From assembly GCA_017379955.1 (NCBI GenBank), contig JAFNVE010000091.1, positions 1-11,700 of the forward strand: DNA of 11,700 nucleotides, read 5' to 3'. This stretch comes from Tidjanibacter sp. Its GTDB lineage: Bacteria > Bacteroidota > Bacteroidia > Bacteroidales > Rikenellaceae. The notes under the pieces are model-generated. The model worked only from the letters and a program-made list of their open reading frames with translations. It ran no database searches and was not told where the DNA came from. Positions 3,165 through 11,013 of the stretch are shown here, in pieces; position 1 is the first letter of the stretch, and every line of letters begins with the position of its first letter. The position numbers and the translations under genes were made by a program.

Positions 3165-3641
3165 TTAGTAGGGAATCTCAACCTTTGGCCAAAATTTTGC
3201 AAGCTCGCGTGCAAACTGTTTGCGTGAGCAACCCTCGCGCAGCGCAAAGAAGATTGTATCATCTCCGGCGATTGTTCCTGCAATCTCGGGAAACTTCTTG
3301 TTGTCAATCAAAACAGCAACCGCATTTGCGTAACCTGCCTTGGTGCGGATTATGCCAAGACTGCCCGAAAAGCATATCTCGACAATATTGTCAGTGATGA
3401 GCGAAGAGACGTTATTATCGGCCTGATAGGGAGCCATTTGCTCGGGAATAACGTATATATATCCCTTTTCTCTGTGGGGCACTTTTGCAACGTGCATATA
3501 CTTCAAATCCCTAGAAAGGGTGCTCTGTGTTGTTTCGATATTGTGCTCTTTCAGCCTGATTATCAGCTCTTCCTGCGATGCAATAGGCTCTGCCTCGATA
3601 ATCTGGCGGATGATTGAAAAGCGATGTGTGCGTTTGTTCAT
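3165..3641 (-). CDS. argR: Arginine repressor ArgR
   Basis: A 158-residue transcription factor that binds ARG-box operators when L-arginine is present. The N-terminal winged helix covers about residues 1-66, with SQEELIIRL (22-30) and the recognition region TQSTLSRDLKYM (38-49). The C-terminal hexamerisation and arginine-binding domain has IRTKAGYANAVAVLID (98-113) and the hallmark GTIAGDDTIFF (122-132), whose Asp pair binds arginine in E. coli ArgR. The position matching E. coli Gln106 is Asn. The frame is open ten residues further upstream to an ATG at 3671, but I chose the inner ATG at 3641: it gives the usual family length, and the outer ATG falls inside the predicted -7 promoter element at 3669-3676. 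The gene is divergent from carA, with about 106 bases of shared control DNA. Autoregulation is likely for this family, and a candidate operator overlaps the promoter. nhaC follows downstream. Confidence 0.95.
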   Translation of the reverse strand: MNKRTHRFSIIRQIIEAEPIASQEELIIRLKEHNIETTQSTLSRDLKYMHVAKVPHREKGYIYVIPEQMAPYQADNNVSSLITDNIVEICFSGSLGIIRTKAGYANAVAVLIDNKKFPEIAGTIAGDDTIFFALREGCSRKQFARELAKFWPKVEIPY

Positions 3642-3679
3642 AATGAATATATATTTTACATATTTATGCAAATGTAAAA
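3642..3679. promoter_or_regulatory. Candidate ArgR operator region (dyads between argR and carA)
   Basis: Two overlapping signals lie here. A perfect inverted repeat TTTTACAT (3654-3661) and ATGTAAAA (3672-3679) spans the argR -7 element, with ATTTATGCAA between the arms. Next to it, TGAATATATATTTT (3644-3657) matches the E. coli ARG-box core TGAATwwwwATTCA at 12 of 14 positions. TACATATTTATGCA (3657-3670) matches a carAB-style variant ending in ATGCA at 12 of 14. The box spacing is not the E. coli spacing, and AT-rich DNA gives such matches readily, so the exact operator is uncertain. Confidence 0.42.
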
Positions 3680-3747: not shown

Positions 3748-4806
3748 ATGCAACTATACAAGAAGGCCCGCTTAACTCTCTCGGACGGTAGCGTCTATGA
3801 GGGTGTATCATTTGGTTACGAGGCCTCGGTATCGGGCGAGGTCGTCTTCCATACCGGGATGACCGGCTATCCCGAAAGTCTTACCGATCCCTCTTACAAA
3901 GGACAGATATTGGTATCTACCTATCCTATGGTAGGAAACTACGGAGTTCCCCACGAAAAGGTGGTAGATGGCGTGTCGATTAATTTTGAATCGGACGCCA
4001 TTTATTGTACTGCACTTATCGTTACGGACTACTCTCTGGTACACAGCCACTGGAACGCAGAGCGTTCGCTCAGTGATTGGCTGATTGAGCAAAAGGTTCC
4101 CGCACTTTGTGGTATTGACACTCGTGCGTTGACCAAGAAACTGAGAGATCAGGGTACTATGCTCGGCAAGATTGAGTTCGGCTCGGAGTGTGTACAATTT
4201 ACCGACCCCAACTCGCGTAACCTCGTTGCTGAGGTTTCTACCCGCACCGTAGAGCACTACGGCAAGGGCAGCAAGCGCATTGTGGTTGTTGACTGCGGTG
4301 TTAAGAACTCTTCGCTTCGTACCTTGATGAATTGGGATGTTGAGTTGGTGCGCGTACCTTGGGACTACGACTTCACTGCTGAGCAGTATGATGGTCTGGT
4401 AGTGTCAAACGGTCCTGGTGACCCTGCAACTTGCGGTGTGCTTATCAAACGCTTGCAGCAGGCACTCAAAGAGGATAAACCTATCCTTGGTATCTGCCTT
4501 GGCAACCAGTTGCTGGCTCGTGCAGCGGGTGCTTCGACCTATAAACTCAAATATGGCCACCGTGGCCACAATCAGCCTGTTGAGAGGGTTGGCAGTCAGA
4601 AGTGCTACATCACCTCGCAGAATCACGGCTTTGCAGTCGATGGTAAGAGTCTGCCCGAGGGTTGGGAGCCTCTCTTCCTCAATCTGAACGACGGTACTAA
4701 TGAGGGTATCCGCCACAGCGAGAAGCCTTTCTATGGTGTACAGTTCCAGATTGACGTGGAGAACCCCATTGTAGTGGAGTTTATGGATAAGGTAATGAAT
4801 AAGTAA
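3748..4806 (+). CDS. carA: Carbamoyl-phosphate synthase small (glutaminase) subunit, with altered catalytic triad
   Basis: CarA normally hydrolyses glutamine and feeds ammonia to CarB. The 352-residue product has the N-terminal CarA domain (GEVVFHTGMTGYPESLTDPSY, residues 30-50; GIDTRALTKKLR, 122-133) and a class I glutamine amidotransferase domain (about 177-352). The latter shows SNGPGDP (220-226), the nucleophile Cys250 in GICLGNQLL, KYGHRGHNQPV (268-278) and SQNHGFAVD (290-298). The end is abnormal. Where the family has F-HPE-SPGP, this protein has VQFQIDVENP (331-340), so the catalytic His is Gln334, the Glu is Asp336, and the SPGP loop is missing. No other frame restores HPE, so a simple frameshift does not explain it. 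It is about 30 residues shorter than E. coli CarA. carB follows after 23 bases, and the partner surface seems kept. It may be a structural or regulatory subunit with weak or no glutaminase activity. Confidence 0.94.
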   Translation: MQLYKKARLTLSDGSVYEGVSFGYEASVSGEVVFHTGMTGYPESLTDPSYKGQILVSTYPMVGNYGVPHEKVVDGVSINFESDAIYCTALIVTDYSLVHSHWNAERSLSDWLIEQKVPALCGIDTRALTKKLRDQGTMLGKIEFGSECVQFTDPNSRNLVAEVSTRTVEHYGKGSKRIVVVDCGVKNSSLRTLMNWDVELVRVPWDYDFTAEQYDGLVVSNGPGDPATCGVLIKRLQQALKEDKPILGICLGNQLLARAAGASTYKLKYGHRGHNQPVERVGSQKCYITSQNHGFAVDGKSLPEGWEPLFLNLNDGTNEGIRHSEKPFYGVQFQIDVENPIVVEFMDKVMNK

Positions 4807-4829: not shown

Positions 4830-7800
4830 ATGAAGGAATTGAAAGATGTAAAGAAGGTGCTTCTGCTCGGTAGTGGAGCACTCAAAATTGGTGAGGCAGG
4901 TGAGTTCGACTACTCGGGTTCGCAGGCACTCAAAGCAATGCGTGAGGAGGGTAAGTATACTATCCTTATCAACCCCAATATTGCTACTGTGCAGACTTCG
5001 GAGGGTGTAGCAGATAAAATCTACTATCTCCCCATCACTCCCTTCTTCGTTGAGAAGGTTATCGAGCGTGAGCGTCCCGATGGCATCCTTTTGGCATTTG
5101 GTGGTCAGACCGCACTGAACTGCGGTGTGCAGCTCTTCGAGAGTGGTGTGTTGCAGAAGTATGATGTTCGCGTGCTCGGTACTCCTATTGAGGCAATTAT
5201 CGAGACTGAGGACCGCGAGATTTTTGCAAACCGTCTTCGTGAGATTAATGTAAAGACCCCTCGCAGTATCGCTGCCAACACTTTGGAGGAGGCTCGTGCT
5301 GCTGTTGAGGAGTTGGGCTTCCCTATCATCGTGCGTGCTGCATACGCGCTCGGTGGTCTGGGCTCGGGCTTCTGCGCCAATATGGATGAGTTGGAGCGAC
5401 TCGCTTCGAGTGCTCTTTCGTACTCGCCCCAGATTTTGGTTGAGGAGTCGCTCAAAGGCTGGAAAGAGATTGAGTATGAGGTGGTGCGTGACCGCTATGA
5501 TAACTGCATCACTGTATGTAATATGGAGAACTTCGACCCGCTGGGTATCCACACCGGCGAGAGTCTTGTAGTTGCTCCCTGCCAGACCCTCAGTAACCGT
5601 GAGGTGTCGCGTCTGAGAGCTATTGCAATCAGCATTGTTCGCCACGTTGGTATCGTTGGTGAGTGTAATGTGCAGTTTGCTCTCGACCCCTACTCGGAGG
5701 ATTACCGAGTTATCGAGGTTAATGCTCGTCTGTCGCGTTCGTCGGCTTTGGCATCGAAGGCAACAGGTTATCCTTTGGCATTTGTGGCTGCTAAGTTGGG
5801 CCTTGGCTACGGTCTGAAGGAGATTAAAAATGCAGTAACTAAGGTTACTACCGCATTTTTTGAGCCCTCGATTGACTATGTTGTCTGCAAGATTCCTCGT
5901 TGGGATTTGAGCAAATTCGACGGTGTGTCGAAGGAGATTGGCTCGTCAATGAAGAGTGTTGGTGAGATTATGTCTATCGGTCGTACCTTTGAGGAGGCTA
6001 TCCAGAAGGGTCTTCGTATGGTAGGACAGGGTATGCAGGGCTTCACTTGCAATAATGTCCGTATTCCCGATATCGACCACGAGCTTGCAAACCCCACCGA
6101 TAAGCGTGTGATGGCTATCGACAAGGCCTTCGAGATGGGCTACTCGGTAGATAAGATTTACGATATCACCAAGATTGACCGTTGGTTCTTGGAGCGTCTG
6201 TTGGCAATCCATAACCTCGGCAAGGATTTGTCTGTATACGATTCGATTGATAGTGTTCCCCGCGACCTGCTGTTGGAGGCTAAGCGTATGGGCTTCTCGG
6301 ATTGGCAGTTGTCGTACCTCACTATGAGCAAGTCGAACCTCTCGAAGAGTGCGCGTGAGTTGCAGGTGCGTGAGCGTCGTAAGGCCCTTGGCATCGTGCC
6401 TTGCGTTAAGCAGATTGATACACTTGCTGGTGAGTTCCCCGCTCAGACCAACTACCTCTATGTAACTTATAATGGTACTGAGAGCGATATTGAGTTCTGT
6501 CACGACAATAACTCGGTTGTTGTACTCGGCTCGGGTGCTTACCGAATTGGTAGTAGTGTGGAGTTTGACTGGTGCGGTGTAAATGCGTTGAAGACTGTAC
6601 GCGAGATGGGTTATCGTGGTATTATGATTAACTACAACCCCGAGACCGTAAGTACCGACTTTGATAACTGCGACCGACTCTACTTCGATGAGTTGAGCTA
6701 TGAGCGAGTTATGGATATCATCGAGGCCGAGATGCCTTATGGTGCTATTCTCTCGACAGGTGGTCAGATTCCTAATAACCTGGCTGTTGATTTGAACTCG
6801 GCAGGTGTGAATATCTTGGGTACCTCGGCTGCATCTATCGACCGTGCTGAGAACCGTCAGAAGTTCTCGGAGATGTGCGATATGCTCGGTATCGAGCAGC
6901 CTGAGTGGCAGGAGTTGTCGACCCTTGACGATATCTACAAGTTTGTCGATAAGGTGGGTCTTCCCGTGCTGATTCGTCCTTCGTATGTGCTTTCGGGTGC
7001 AGCTATGAACGTCGTGTCGAGCAAGGATGAGTTGGAGGAGTACCTTAACTTGGCGGCTGAGGTTAGTGAGGATTATCCCGTTGTGGTTACCAAGTTTATG
7101 GAGAACGCCAAGGAGTTGGAGATTGACGCAGTTGCACAGCGTGGTGAGTTGAAGGTTTATGCAGTCAGCGAGCACGTTGAGTATGCAGGTGTTCACTCGG
7201 GCGACGCAACTATCGTATTCCCCGCGCAGAAAATCTATATGGAGACCATCCGTAAGATTCGCAAGATTGCTAAGGCTGTGGCTCGCGAGCTGAATATCTC
7301 GGGTCCCTTCAATATGCAGTTCTTGGCTAAGGATAACCACGTTAGTGTTATCGAGTGTAACTTGCGTGCATCGCGTAGCTTCCCCTTCGTGTCGAAGGTT
7401 ATGAAGTTCAACTTTATCAATCTTGCAACCCGCATTATGCTGGGTCGTCAGGTTGAGGGTTATACCAAGTCTTTCCTCGATATCGACTATGTAGGTGTTA
7501 AGGCTTCGCAGTTCTCGTTTGCGCGTCTGTTGAAGGCTGACCCCGTGCTGGGTGTAGATATGGCTTCGACCGGTGAGGTAGGTTGTATCGGTGCTAACTT
7601 CGATGAGGCACTCTTGAAGAGTATGTACTCTGTTGGTCACCATATTCCCACTGAGGGTATTTTGATTTCGGCAGGTACTCTGCGTCAGAAACTCGATATG
7701 TTGGAGCCTACTCGTCTGATGGTTGAGCGTGGCTTTAAGATTTACGCTACTGAGGGTACTGCTAAGTTCCTCAATGAAAATGGCGTAGAGGCTGAGGCAC

Positions 7801-8060
7801 TCTATTGGCCCGATGAGAATAAGGAGCCCAATGTGATGGATTATCTCCACTCGAAGAAGATTGACCTTGTAATCAATATCCCGAAGAACAACACTCACCG
7901 TGAGCTTGGTAATGGCTACCGTATCCGCCGTGCTGCTGTTGACTTCAATATTCCTCTGATTACCAATGCTCGTCTTGCAGGTGCATACTTCAAGGCTATC
8001 TGCAATGTTGGCAGCATCGATAATCTGAAAATCAAGAGTTGGGAGGAGTACAACCACTAG
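4830..8060 (+). CDS. carB: Carbamoyl-phosphate synthase large subunit, eukaryote-like type
   Basis: CarB makes carbamoyl phosphate from bicarbonate, ammonia and two ATP, for arginine and pyrimidines. The 1076-residue chain has four regions: the carboxyphosphate ATP-grasp half (about 1-400; Arg129, Arg169, Glu215, then Glu296, Asn298, Arg300 in EVNARLSRSSALASK), an oligomerisation region (400-555), the carbamoyl-phosphate half (555-937; GSSVEFDWCGVNALK 575-589, RPSYVLSGAAMNVV 716-729, EHVEYAGVHSGDAT 781-794), and an MGS-like allosteric domain (937-1076). Wording throughout is closer to animal CAD/CPS1 than to E. coli CarB as I recall them, for instance INPNIATVQTSEGVADK (47-63), GWKEIEYEVVRD (210-221) and VKQIDTLAGEFPAQTNYLY (526-544). 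In the allosteric domain Thr974 and Thr977 are kept, but E. coli Lys993 is Trp993, as in CPS1 and CAD. I believe this type is common in Bacteroidales. A terminator follows at once. Confidence 0.98.
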   Translation: MKELKDVKKVLLLGSGALKIGEAGEFDYSGSQALKAMREEGKYTILINPNIATVQTSEGVADKIYYLPITPFFVEKVIERERPDGILLAFGGQTALNCGVQLFESGVLQKYDVRVLGTPIEAIIETEDREIFANRLREINVKTPRSIAANTLEEARAAVEELGFPIIVRAAYALGGLGSGFCANMDELERLASSALSYSPQILVEESLKGWKEIEYEVVRDRYDNCITVCNMENFDPLGIHTGESLVVAPCQTLSNREVSRLRAIAISIVRHVGIVGECNVQFALDPYSEDYRVIEVNARLSRSSALASKATGYPLAFVAAKLGLGYGLKEIKNAVTKVTTAFFEPSIDYVVCKIPRWDLSKFDGVSKEIGSSMKSVGEIMSIGRTFEEAIQKGLRMVGQGMQGFTCNNVRIPDIDHELANPTDKRVMAIDKAFEMGYSVDKIYDITKIDRWFLERLLAIHNLGKDLSVYDSIDSVPRDLLLEAKRMGFSDWQLSYLTMSKSNLSKSARELQVRERRKALGIVPCVKQIDTLAGEFPAQTNYLYVTYNGTESDIEFCHDNNSVVVLGSGAYRIGSSVEFDWCGVNALKTVREMGYRGIMINYNPETVSTDFDNCDRLYFDELSYERVMDIIEAEMPYGAILSTGGQIPNNLAVDLNSAGVNILGTSAASIDRAENRQKFSEMCDMLGIEQPEWQELSTLDDIYKFVDKVGLPVLIRPSYVLSGAAMNVVSSKDELEEYLNLAAEVSEDYPVVVTKFMENAKELEIDAVAQRGELKVYAVSEHVEYAGVHSGDATIVFPAQKIYMETIRKIRKIAKAVARELNISGPFNMQFLAKDNHVSVIECNLRASRSFPFVSKVMKFNFINLATRIMLGRQVEGYTKSFLDIDYVGVKASQFSFARLLKADPVLGVDMASTGEVGCIGANFDEALLKSMYSVGHHIPTEGILISAGTLRQKLDMLEPTRLMVERGFKIYATEGTAKFLNENGVEAEALYWPDENKEPNVMDYLHSKKIDLVINIPKNNTHRELGNGYRIRRAAVDFNIPLITNARLAGAYFKAICNVGSIDNLKIKSWEEYNH

Positions 8061-8231: not shown

Positions 8232-8837
8232 ATGAAAATCGATGTAATGGTTGCAGGACAGGAGCACCTGCGTTATGTCAGCACAATCAACGACACTATT
8301 GACGAGGCTGCTAAGGCTCGCGGAACAGGTATTGCTCGCCGTACAGACGAGTATATCACCGACAAGATTAATCAGGGTAAGGCTATCATCGCTCTCAACA
8401 GAGAGGAGTTTGTTGGCTTTTGCTATATCGAGTCGTGGGGGCACGACAAGTTTGTTGCCAACTCTGGTCTGATTGTGAAGCCATCGTATCGTGGTATGGG
8501 TGTGGCTAAGAAGATTAAGAAGGCTGCTTTTGACCTTTCGCGTAAGCGTTTCCCCGATGCAAAGATTTTTGGTCTGACAACCGGCGAGCAGGTGATGCGT
8601 ATCAATACCGAACTCGGCTATGTTCCTGTTACCTTTGCAAAACTGACCGATGATGAGGAGTTCTGGGCAGGTTGCAAGTCGTGTGTAAACTTCGATATCC
8701 TGGAGCGTACCAATATGACTAAGTGCCTCTGTACCGGTATGGTATACGACCCCGTTGAGGCAGCAAAACGCGCTGAGGCAGAGAAGGCAGCAATGAAGAA
8801 ACCCGGATTCTGGGCAAGAGTATTTGGTAAGTATTAA
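8232..8837 (+). CDS. GNAT-family N-acyltransferase in the arginine operon (candidate acylglutamate synthase)
   Basis: A 201-residue GNAT protein. The acyl-CoA-binding motif A is LIVKPSYRGMGVAKKI (80-95), with the usual R-x-x-G-x-A pyrophosphate loop at 87-92, and ELGYVPV (127-133) is the typical GNAT closing segment. After it comes a cysteine-rich stretch, C148-x2-C151-x13-C165-x-C167, which resembles a metal site, and an Ala/Lys-rich tail (about 175-201). The gene is first in a unit with argG, argC and argD, and from memory Bacteroides has the same GNAT-argG-argC-argD order. Because ArgC and ArgD need an N-acylated glutamate, this gene is the obvious local candidate for the first acylation (N-acetyl- or N-succinylglutamate synthase). 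It is not similar to classical ArgA or ArgJ, so the activity is an inference and I give no gene symbol. No Shine-Dalgarno sequence precedes the ATG. argG starts 20 bases downstream. Confidence 0.9.
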   Translation: MKIDVMVAGQEHLRYVSTINDTIDEAAKARGTGIARRTDEYITDKINQGKAIIALNREEFVGFCYIESWGHDKFVANSGLIVKPSYRGMGVAKKIKKAAFDLSRKRFPDAKIFGLTTGEQVMRINTELGYVPVTFAKLTDDEEFWAGCKSCVNFDILERTNMTKCLCTGMVYDPVEAAKRAEAEKAAMKKPGFWARVFGKY

Positions 8838-8857: not shown

Positions 8858-10045
8858 ATGAAGAAAGTAGTTTTAGCATATAGTGGAGGTTTGGATACCT
8901 CGTTTTGTGTGAAATATCTCTCTGAGGAGCTGGGTTATGAGGTCTATACCGCCCTTGCAAATACAGGTGGTTTCTCGGCCGAGGAGTTGGCTTCGGTAGA
9001 GGCTCGTGCCTACGCACTTGGCGCAAAGAAGCATGTCAATCTCGATATTACCGGTGATTACTACGATAAGTGTATCAAATATATGGTCTTTGGCAATGTC
9101 TTGCGTAATAAGACCTATCCTATTTCGGTAAGCTCGGAGCGTACCTTCCAGGCGTTGGCTATCGTGGCATACGCAAATGAGATTGGTGCAGACGCTATCG
9201 CTCACGGCTCGACAGGTGCGGGTAACGACCAAGTTCGTTTTGACCTGACTTTTGAGGTGTTTGCTCCTCAGATGGAGATTATCACTCCTACCCGCGATAT
9301 GAAACTCTCGCGCGAGTATGAAATTAACTACCTGAAAGAGCACGGCTTTGAGGCTGATTTTACTAAGATGGAGTACTCAATCAATAAGGGTTTGTGGGGT
9401 ACTTCGGTTGGTGGTAAGGAGACACTCTGCTCGGCGACCAATCTTCCCGACCACGCCTATCCTTCGCAGTTGAGCAAAGAGGGTACTGAGCAGTTGGAGT
9501 TGGAGTTCTGTTGTGGCGAGATTTCGGCTGTCAATGGCGAGAAGTGCTCGGGTGTGGATGCTATCCGCAAGATTGAGGCTATCGGCTCGGCTTGGGCTAT
9601 CGGTAGAGATACTCACGTTGGCGACACTATTGTTGGTATCAAGGGCCGTGTAGGTTTTGAGGCAGCGGCTCCTATGCTGATTATCAAAGCACACGAACTG
9701 CTCGAAAAACACACCCTCACCAAGTGGCAGCAGTATTGGAAGGAGCAGCTCGGCAATTGGTACGGTATGTTCCTCCACGAGGCTATGTACTCAGAGCCTG
9801 TGATGAGGGATGTGGAGAAGTTCCTCGACAACTCGCAGCGCAATGTTAGTGGTAAGGTATATATTACCCTGCGTCCTTATGGTTTCTCGCTGGTAGGTAT
9901 CTCTTCGGAGCACGATTTGATGAACTCCTCGTTTGCGGCCTATGGTGAGGATAACAAGGCTTGGACTGCTGATGATGTAAAGGGCTTCACCAAGATTCTC
10001 TCGATGCCCTTGAAGATTTATAATAAGGTAAACGACGACCTCTAA
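8858..10045 (+). CDS. argG: Argininosuccinate synthase
   Basis: ArgG joins citrulline and aspartate with ATP to give argininosuccinate, the penultimate step to arginine. The 395-residue product is of normal family length and begins with the PP-loop ATP motif AYSGGLDTSF (residues 7-16). It also has YPISVSSERTFQALA (87-101) and AHGSTGAGNDQVRFD (115-129), which corresponds to the substrate and ATP loop usually written HG-TGKGNDQVRF; the usual Lys is Ala here. Further on are NKGLWGTSVGGKETL and the C-terminal RPYGFSLVGISSEHDLM segment. The start codon is preceded by AGAGGAA, one of the few Shine-Dalgarno-like sequences in the window. The stop overlaps the argC start in TAATG, so translation is probably coupled. 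It is the second gene of the GNAT-argG-argC-argD unit. Confidence 0.96.
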   Translation: MKKVVLAYSGGLDTSFCVKYLSEELGYEVYTALANTGGFSAEELASVEARAYALGAKKHVNLDITGDYYDKCIKYMVFGNVLRNKTYPISVSSERTFQALAIVAYANEIGADAIAHGSTGAGNDQVRFDLTFEVFAPQMEIITPTRDMKLSREYEINYLKEHGFEADFTKMEYSINKGLWGTSVGGKETLCSATNLPDHAYPSQLSKEGTEQLELEFCCGEISAVNGEKCSGVDAIRKIEAIGSAWAIGRDTHVGDTIVGIKGRVGFEAAAPMLIIKAHELLEKHTLTKWQQYWKEQLGNWYGMFLHEAMYSEPVMRDVEKFLDNSQRNVSGKVYITLRPYGFSLVGISSEHDLMNSSFAAYGEDNKAWTADDVKGFTKILSMPLKIYNKVNDDL

Positions 10046-11013
10046 TGGAGCAGAAGATAAGAGTTGCCATTGCCGGAGGTGCAGGCTATACGGCAGGTGA
10101 ATTGTTGCGTCTGCTGGTGGCTCACCCAATGGCCGAGGTTGTGGCTGTGCAGAGCACTTCGCACGCAGGCTCGGCTGTGGGTAGTGTGCATAGCGACCTT
10201 GTGTGGTGGCAGAAGAGTTTTGTGGAGGCGATTGACTTTGAGCAGATAGATGTTGTCTTCCTCTGTATGGGTCACGGCCACTCGTTGGAGTTCTTTGCGC
10301 AAAATAATGTGCCTGAGAGAGTTAAGGTTATCGACCTCGGCAATGACTTCCGCTTGAAGGCAGACGCTAACGGCTTTATCTATGGTCTTCCCGAGTTGCG
10401 CAGAGAGGAGATTTGTGGTTGCTCGCGATTGGCTAATCCGGGCTGTTTCGCTACCTCTATCGAACTCGCTCTGTTGCCTCTTGCAGCGGCTGGTCTGTTG
10501 CCTGAGGAGGTTACTGTTGTTGCAATGACAGGTAGTACCGGAGCAGGACAGAAACCAACGCACGACACCCATTTCAGTAATCGTAGTGGCAACCTTTCCA
10601 ACTATAAGGTCTTCACTCATCAACACCTTGCCGAGATTGGCGAGACGCTTGCTGCGGCAGGTATGCAGACCGACTTGGCATTTGTTCCTGTTCGTGGTTG
10701 CCACACTCGCGGCATTATGGCTGATGTGGTGTTGCGCAGTGAGATGAGCGAGGAGGAGGTGAGAACTCTTTATAAGAATTTCTATGCCGACGCACCGTTT
10801 ACCTTTGTAAGTGATTCGCCTGTCTATATGAAACAGGTGGTCGGTACTAATTTCTGTATGATTTCTATCCAGAAAGAGGGCGATAAGTTGCTGATTACCT
10901 CTGTGATAGATAATCTTTTGAAGGGTGCATCTGGTCAGGCTGTGCAGAATATGAATCTGATGTTTGGTCTTGACGAGATGTGTGGACTACGACTCAAAGC
11001 GGTCGGTTTTTAA
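10045..11013 (+). CDS. argC: N-acyl-gamma-glutamyl-phosphate reductase
   Basis: ArgC reduces N-acylglutamyl phosphate to the semialdehyde with NADPH. The 322-residue product has the dinucleotide-binding turn AIAGGAGYTAGELLRLL (8-24), IDLGNDFRL (96-104), the active-site Cys134 in ANPGCFATS (130-138), TGSTGAGQKPTHDTHFS, the YKVFTHQHLAEI segment with the conserved His, FVPVRGCHTRGI, and the C-terminal DNLLKGASGQAVQNMN-MFG stretch. The wording is the Bacteroidales type. In Bacteroides the arginine intermediates are thought to be N-succinylated instead of N-acetylated; which acyl group applies here cannot be read from this gene, and the diagnostic transcarbamylase is outside the window. The ATG overlaps the argG stop by one base. 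argD begins 11 bases after the stop. Confidence 0.96.
   Translation: MEQKIRVAIAGGAGYTAGELLRLLVAHPMAEVVAVQSTSHAGSAVGSVHSDLVWWQKSFVEAIDFEQIDVVFLCMGHGHSLEFFAQNNVPERVKVIDLGNDFRLKADANGFIYGLPELRREEICGCSRLANPGCFATSIELALLPLAAAGLLPEEVTVVAMTGSTGAGQKPTHDTHFSNRSGNLSNYKVFTHQHLAEIGETLAAAGMQTDLAFVPVRGCHTRGIMADVVLRSEMSEEEVRTLYKNFYADAPFTFVSDSPVYMKQVVGTNFCMISIQKEGDKLLITSVIDNLLKGASGQAVQNMNLMFGLDEMCGLRLKAVGF

Follow-up and report, generated by a model that had tools for sequence, protein, structure and literature searches.

Loss of the glutaminase triad from a Tidjanibacter carbamoyl phosphate synthetase, and its recurrence across the bacterial family

The carbamoyl phosphate synthetase (CPS) encoded in the arginine operon of a Tidjanibacter species has a small subunit, CarA, in which the glutaminase triad is broken. 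We think it quite probable, judging from sequence comparisons, that this subunit no longer acts as a glutaminase, that the enzyme is fed by ammonia and that CarA has been retained as a partner of the large subunit, CarB. Among the sequences surveyed, the triad is lost repeatedly in the family to which the genus belongs, Rikenellaceae, and by different mutations. The gene lies in an 11,700-nucleotide stretch of DNA (the window, meaning the whole of the stretch analyzed), with the following features.

3748..4806, + strand: carA, CPS small subunit with a broken glutaminase triad (TIGR01368, 401.6 bits against a cut-off of 307.35; Pfam CPSase_sm_chain and GATase)
4411..4425, + strand: GPGDP, residues 222-226, intact
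4495..4497, + strand: Cys250, counterpart of E. coli Cys269, kept
4618..4629, + strand: QNHG, residues 291-294, counterpart of E. coli Gln310-Gly313, intact
4747..4755, + strand: Gln334-Ile335-Asp336, replacing the catalytic His-Pro-Glu (E. coli 353-355), as also in G006, G011 and P0002
4756..4803, + strand: shortened tail, VENPIVVEFMDKVMNK, then stop, with the SPGP loop (E. coli 357-360) reduced in the alignment to E. coli CarA

The carA frame is open and encodes 352 amino acids. Its product scores above the curated cut-off of the CarA profile (TIGR01368), has the two-domain fold of known CarA proteins and is encoded next to carB. Alignment to the E. coli protein gives Gln for His353, Ile for Pro354, Asp for Glu355 and a gap in the SPGP loop, with Ser47, Lys202, Gly241, Gly243, Cys269, Gln273, Asn311, His312 and Gly313 unchanged; the catalytic Cys of class I amidotransferases is thus present, as Cys250, and the catalytic His is absent, with Gln334 at its position. 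The initial annotation had placed Gln334 and Asp336 where His and Glu are expected. The exchange of His for Gln is firm in the alignments, whereas that of Glu for Asp depends on gap placement: D336 stands opposite E355 in some alignments and E338 does so in another. The SPGP loop, which presumably lines the ammonia tunnel, had been described as gone; the gap was reproduced, and the loop is reduced, together with a tail some 10 residues shorter than in close relatives. Cys250, the GPGDP motif (which we take to be the oxyanion/glutamine-binding loop) and QNHG are intact, just as first reported. A frameshift hiding the HPE motif was rejected, HPE being absent from both of the other forward frames, as the initial annotation had also found. 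An AlphaFold2 model (pLDDT 92, pTM 0.92) predicts that the CarA fold is intact, lying within 1.5 Å of human CPS1 over 348 residues and 1.6-1.8 Å of E. coli CarA over 341.

When relatives were aligned, as had been proposed, Gln-Ile-Asp proved common to four CarA proteins: those of the window genome (G000), G006 (98% identity), G011 (92%) and P0002 (84%). The window's own cluster, P0001, stands for 56 member sequences and 12 contigs. Because related genomes carry the same change, a sequencing or assembly error was rejected. Cys-His-Glu is found in the other 118 of the best 120 database matches. Genomes belonging to other families of the order, 24 in all, yielded CarA in 18 cases, each with Cys-His-Glu. 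Of the 80 loci drawn from named genomes, 76 show Cys-His-Glu, two are Tidjanibacter records and two, L096 and L105 (described below), are other losses. The records at 98% and 92% identity are Tidjanibacter metagenome-assembled genomes from yak cecum and sheep rectum, in keeping with the earlier supposition of a gut organism. The CarA tree groups the four Gln-x-Asp proteins, with support, in a single clade nested within intact arginine-type CarA. An intact arginine-type CarA is also present in two genomes of the genus, G002 and G003, and the intact triad is therefore likely to be the ancestral state.

A second, intact carA elsewhere in the genome, raised as a possibility at the outset, was rejected: none was found in G000 (a 1.49 Mb draft, 77% complete, of which the window is one contig), G006 (85%) or G011 (95%), all of them drafts. 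Nor was a second CarB found in G000 or G011; in G006, carB is split into two overlapping pieces on two contigs. Elsewhere, a second carB, 63-64% identical, occurs in at least seven of 60 relatives (G003, G025, G028, G030, G034, G053 and G058), on a separate contig or well away from the carA-carB pair (for example G030:C1:1152737-1155946), with no second carA found. Also, carA and carB are apparently fused at L015 and L136 (G037), in one open frame of 1457 amino acids.

The genes around carA place the enzyme in an arginine cluster.

3165..3671, - strand: argR-like regulator, divergent from carA (TIGR01529, 120.8 bits, just below the cut-off of 130.45)
4830..8060, + strand: carB, CPS large subunit (TIGR01369, 1495.7 bits; identical to E. 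coli at 24 of 28 checked positions)
8232..8837, + strand: GNAT acetyltransferase between carB and argG (PF00583)
8858..10045, + strand: argG, divergent argininosuccinate synthase (NF001770, 293.4 bits against a cut-off of 334; Pfam Arginosuc_synth)
10045..11013, + strand: argC (TIGR01850, 290 bits against a cut-off of 233.6)

The order is thus the argR-like gene, upstream on the opposite strand, followed by carA, carB, the GNAT gene, argG and argC. This order is kept in G011, where two more frames, by eye argD and argB, follow argC. Between carA and carB, stop to start, lie 23 bases, and the two genes are separate frames, unlike the single chain of vertebrate CPS1. Among the CarB positions compared with E. 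coli, a choice of 28 that reflects our own assumption, one of the four differences (D207 to E) is conservative. ArgG lies below both curated NCBIfam cut-offs (293.4 against 334, and 250.7 against 268.2 bits), hence its description as divergent.

According to excerpts of PMC6245113, E. coli CPS cannot hydrolyze glutamine without Cys269 and His353, and its large subunit makes carbamoyl phosphate from ammonia, the ammonia requirement being very high and likely unphysiological. Given that dependence on both residues, the window CarAB most likely uses free ammonia, its glutaminase activity presumably having been lost. In the mechanism that we infer, loss of the His353 equivalent, and perhaps of its Glu partner, would leave the Cys250 thiol without a general base, so that glutamine would not be hydrolyzed to ammonia. 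Free gut ammonia would instead enter the complex, possibly through the reduced SPGP loop or close to it, for use by CarB. CarA would be kept because CarB would depend on it structurally and allosterically. The reduced loop spans E. coli Gly359, the site of the G359F mutant (PDB 1m6v), and a study referenced in PMC6245113 reports in its title that blocking the ammonia tunnel by engineering stops the use of glutamine but not that of ammonia. The high ammonia demand of the E. coli enzyme counts against this reading, as do the incomplete state of G000 (77%) and signs that the organism goes on making and using glutamine: G000, G006 and G011 have glutamine synthetase matches, and the CTP synthase and PurL triads are intact.

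The extent of triad loss was assessed in 150 genomes sampled from the family, taken to be Rikenellaceae, from which 125 CarA sequences were analyzed (30 loci, 77 of the 78 in a further set and 18 from earlier comparisons); the fragment L376 was excluded. CarA is called dead here if its three triad columns do not read Cys-His-Glu. By this definition 83 of the 125 keep the triad and 42 do not, the dead states being SHE (10), GHE (9), DQD (6), CQD (3), SYE, GDT, GNE and GDA (2 each), and GQD, NHE, GES, GEA, CQE and RNE (1 each). The Cys itself is lost in 38 of the 42, with outcomes that include Gly, Ser, Asp and Asn. Counted by genome, 82 have an intact CarA and 39 only a dead one, and no CarA sequence was obtained from 29. 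Three proteins of genus g40 (G088, G114 and G119) keep the triad, have lost other site residues and were counted as intact. The dead or intact label requires at least 10 changes on a quick tree of the family rows and 14 on a wider quick tree of 158 rows (10 of these forced by supported branches). A more careful tree, built from 83 rows that include 81 of pyrimidine type, requires nine (bootstrap 7-9, at least six forced). All of these are counts of changes without a direction of gain or loss. This recurrence points the same way as the ammonia-fed reading of the window enzyme.

Within the window's own genus, nine of 11 CarA proteins lack the triad, intact CarA being found only in G002 and G003. 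Five genomes (G009, G012, G013, G016 and G017) have a pyrimidine-operon CarA in which Cys has become Gly with His-Pro-Glu kept, and the pyrimidine-operon CarA of G002 has Ser for Cys, again with His-Pro-Glu. By eye, this operon consists of dihydroorotase, carA, carB, PyrK-like and PyrD-like frames. A second, independent Gln-x-Asp clade is found in genus g46, where Cys has become Asp or Gly alongside the motif VQYQPD; from the Alistipes sp. labels on several database matches, g46 appears to be Alistipes. Of the best 120 database matches of one g46 member, 117 fit Gln-x-Asp by a pattern script, P0305, where the script matched at an earlier position, also has Gln-x-Asp in its tail, and the remaining two read LPD and HPD. 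Outside the family, the CarA of a goat omasum Bacillota metagenome-assembled genome (L096:6001-6999) has Asp for Cys and Ile for His, with further changes at Ser47, Lys202 and Gln273, and that of Lederbergia citri (L105:6001-6999) has Gly for Cys and Glu for His.

A second glutamine-dependent enzyme is affected in the family. A short-type GMP synthase (GuaA), from which most of the glutaminase domain is gone, occurs in 13 of 23 genomes of the genus and in 21 of 62 of g46, short being a score class (PF00958 at or below 134.6 bits) defined without reference to length. The proteins are mostly of 432-459 amino acids (435 in G008, G016 and G021), with longer examples in G156 (513), G139 (471) and G121 (570) and shorter ones of 339-346 in some g40 genomes; that of G016 (L197:1434-2738) covers 76 of 190 GATase positions and has a full synthetase part. 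GuaA of G011 is cut by contig ends, none was found in G000, and G094, which carries both types, was counted as full. Across the 150 genomes, short GuaA accompanies dead-only CarA in 31 and intact CarA in three, against six and 73 for full GuaA, a raw Fisher p of 1.9e-18 that ignores relatedness; within g46 the corresponding numbers are 21 and 0 against 6 and 30. On independent pairs of the CarA tree the association is not significant, with four concordant, no discordant and two uninformative (p 0.125). An across-the-board loss of class I glutaminases was rejected, the triads of PurL (Cys and His-x-Glu in all 22) and CTP synthase (Cys and HPE in 19 genus loci, representing 18 genes because G005 was counted twice) being intact; glutaminase loss is selective. 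G003 has, beside another PyrG match, a second CTP synthase (L208:429-2051) with Ala for Cys (FGLALGMQ) and Asn for His (FNSE).

The genus also varies in how carbamoyl phosphate might be made. CPS was not found in 13 of its 23 genomes, seven of which are 98-99% complete and one only 59%. All 13 have a carbamate kinase match of at least 352 bits, four of them just below the curated cut-off of 358.25, and in these genomes the kinase may be the source of carbamoyl phosphate. Among the 10 genomes with CPS, carbamate kinase is present in G016, G002 and G003 give no more than weak, partial matches (28 and 18 bits), and none was found in G000, G006 or G011; the association with CPS absence has a Fisher p of 1.2e-5, relatedness being ignored. 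Matches of the aspartate/ornithine carbamoyltransferase (ATCase/OTC) type occur in all 23, so users of carbamoyl phosphate remain. The ammonium transporter AmtB (PF00909) was found in none of the 23, against 14 of 14 in the control. Since AmtB serves when ammonia is limited, ammonia otherwise diffusing in (excerpts of PMC12304020), its absence fits an ammonia-rich niche. Glutamine synthetase (PF00120) is present in 19 of the 23, and G000, G006 and G011 have only a long form (open frames of 733-750 amino acids), taken for type III. One genome that is 99% complete, G005, has no PF00120 match.

It could be argued that carA is dispensable and decaying, or that the change is an error of assembly. 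Selection was estimated over the three pairs of the clade, giving dN/dS values for carA of 0.048, 0.077 and 0.100, with 0.045-0.148 for the GATase half and 0.036-0.052 for the first half; in one pair, carB, argG and argC gave 0.038, 0.033 and 0.053. Strong purifying selection of this order argues against decay, as the initial annotation had supposed. Some relaxation is seen across the family: in matched columns of the family rows, where pairs are not independent, the 25 dead pairs have a median GATase dN/dS of 0.124 and the 126 intact ones 0.111, with median ratios of GATase to first-half dN of 1.71 and 0.91. A less strict set, which included rows of other families and codons before the start, gave 1.51 (29 dead pairs) against 0.78 (133 intact), in the same direction. 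The GATase domain of dead CarA is thus mildly relaxed and under strong constraint. The clade differs at 17 sites where at least 95% of 118 intact relatives share a residue, and 10 of the 17 fall from residue 329 onwards, within the final strand, loop and helix. The mild relaxation is what decay would predict, but with the change present in four related proteins, their frames open, the GATase half constrained and the gene order kept in G011, decay or error is extremely unlikely.

Two further possibilities turn on what the clade has kept, for conservation of Cys and of the other glutamine-site residues checked counts against a site that is simply dead and leaves room for a role in glutamine sensing. 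CarA might be a pseudo-glutaminase that binds glutamine, perhaps as a stable thioester on Cys250, and so signals nitrogen status to an ammonia-fed CarB. Such intermediates have precedents in class I enzymes with Asn for His, solved, to judge from their entry titles, as the glutamyl thioester of SpuA H221N and the gamma-Glu intermediate of gamma-glutamyl peptidase H192N; the E. coli 1a9x chain, with Asn at 353, is likewise titled as caught in the act of glutamine hydrolysis. Yet Cys is gone from 38 of the 42 dead proteins of the family, and we think a sensor unlikely. Alternatively, another residue might activate Cys250 and allow glutamine to be used at a lower rate, and here the intact binding residues and Cys, as well as the presence of glutamine synthetase, would fit. 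Against this, His353 is reported to be essential in E. coli (excerpts of PMC6245113), the loop after the His site is also reduced, and other lineages have lost Cys outright, which makes a rewired glutaminase very unlikely. A bolder scenario, in which gut Rikenellaceae are giving up glutamine in the synthesis of carbamoyl phosphate and GMP, one enzyme and one lineage at a time, with the CarA of the window clade as a glutamine sensor whose Cys250 binds glutamine or is acylated without turnover, tuning an ammonia-fed CPS through its Gln-x-Asp site, is to our minds quite unlikely. The reading with which the analysis began, that of a CarA weak or inactive as a glutaminase in an ammonia-fed enzyme that is not decaying, is supported by these comparisons.

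Loss of the triad or glutamine site in an otherwise kept domain, taken as the mark of an ammonia-dependent CPS, is what the window CarA displays, and its closest solved relative by sequence and fold is human CPS1 (PDB 5dot/6uel), in which a GATase-like fold is kept but inactive and ammonia is the substrate. CPS1 would probably be the best match of an intact Bacteroidales CarA too, so the match is in itself no evidence of ammonia use. CPS1 differs in being a single chain that needs N-acetylglutamate and in having lost Cys instead, as the initial annotation had pointed out: excerpts of PMC4655335 state that human CPS1 cannot use glutamine, its Cys being Ser294, and that ammonia may enter along a route bypassing the former glutaminase site, and HPE is kept in the aligned segment (by eye, QFHPEV). 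The CPS of bullfrog and of Alcolapia fish has also naturally lost or weakened its use of glutamine (excerpts of PMC7657897 and PMC4655335), but there the triad is kept and glutamine-binding residues are changed, the reverse of the window CarA. The E. coli CarA mutants H353N (1a9x), G359F (1m6v) and C269S (1c30) are changed at the same site, but they are single laboratory substitutions, whereas in the window His-Pro-Glu and the loop are changed together and naturally fixed. In Pyrococcus, a carbamate kinase-like system of another protein family likewise takes ammonia as its nitrogen source (excerpts of PMC6245113 and PMC6022934, the ammonia-dependent wording coming from a cited title).

Annotation hides losses of this kind: the dead CarA of the window and of G013 and the truncated GMP synthase of G016 all score above the cut-offs of NCBIfam models named "glutamine-hydrolyzing". 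No description of a bacterial CPS with a dead glutaminase was recognized in searches of open-licence literature, by title and start of abstract, and a 2018 review (PMC6245113) names glutamine as the nitrogen donor that E. coli CPS uses physiologically and extends this to every bacterial CPS. Ammonia-dependent CPS is known from vertebrates, and what is surprising is its apparent counterpart in repeated, parallel loss within one bacterial family, of which the change in the window is one case. The pattern parallels the vertebrate switch from glutamine to ammonia and suggests that ammonia in the gut niche is lastingly high. Repeated loss of the triad would amount to a natural experiment, with several replicates, on when free ammonia suffices for the synthesis of carbamoyl phosphate.
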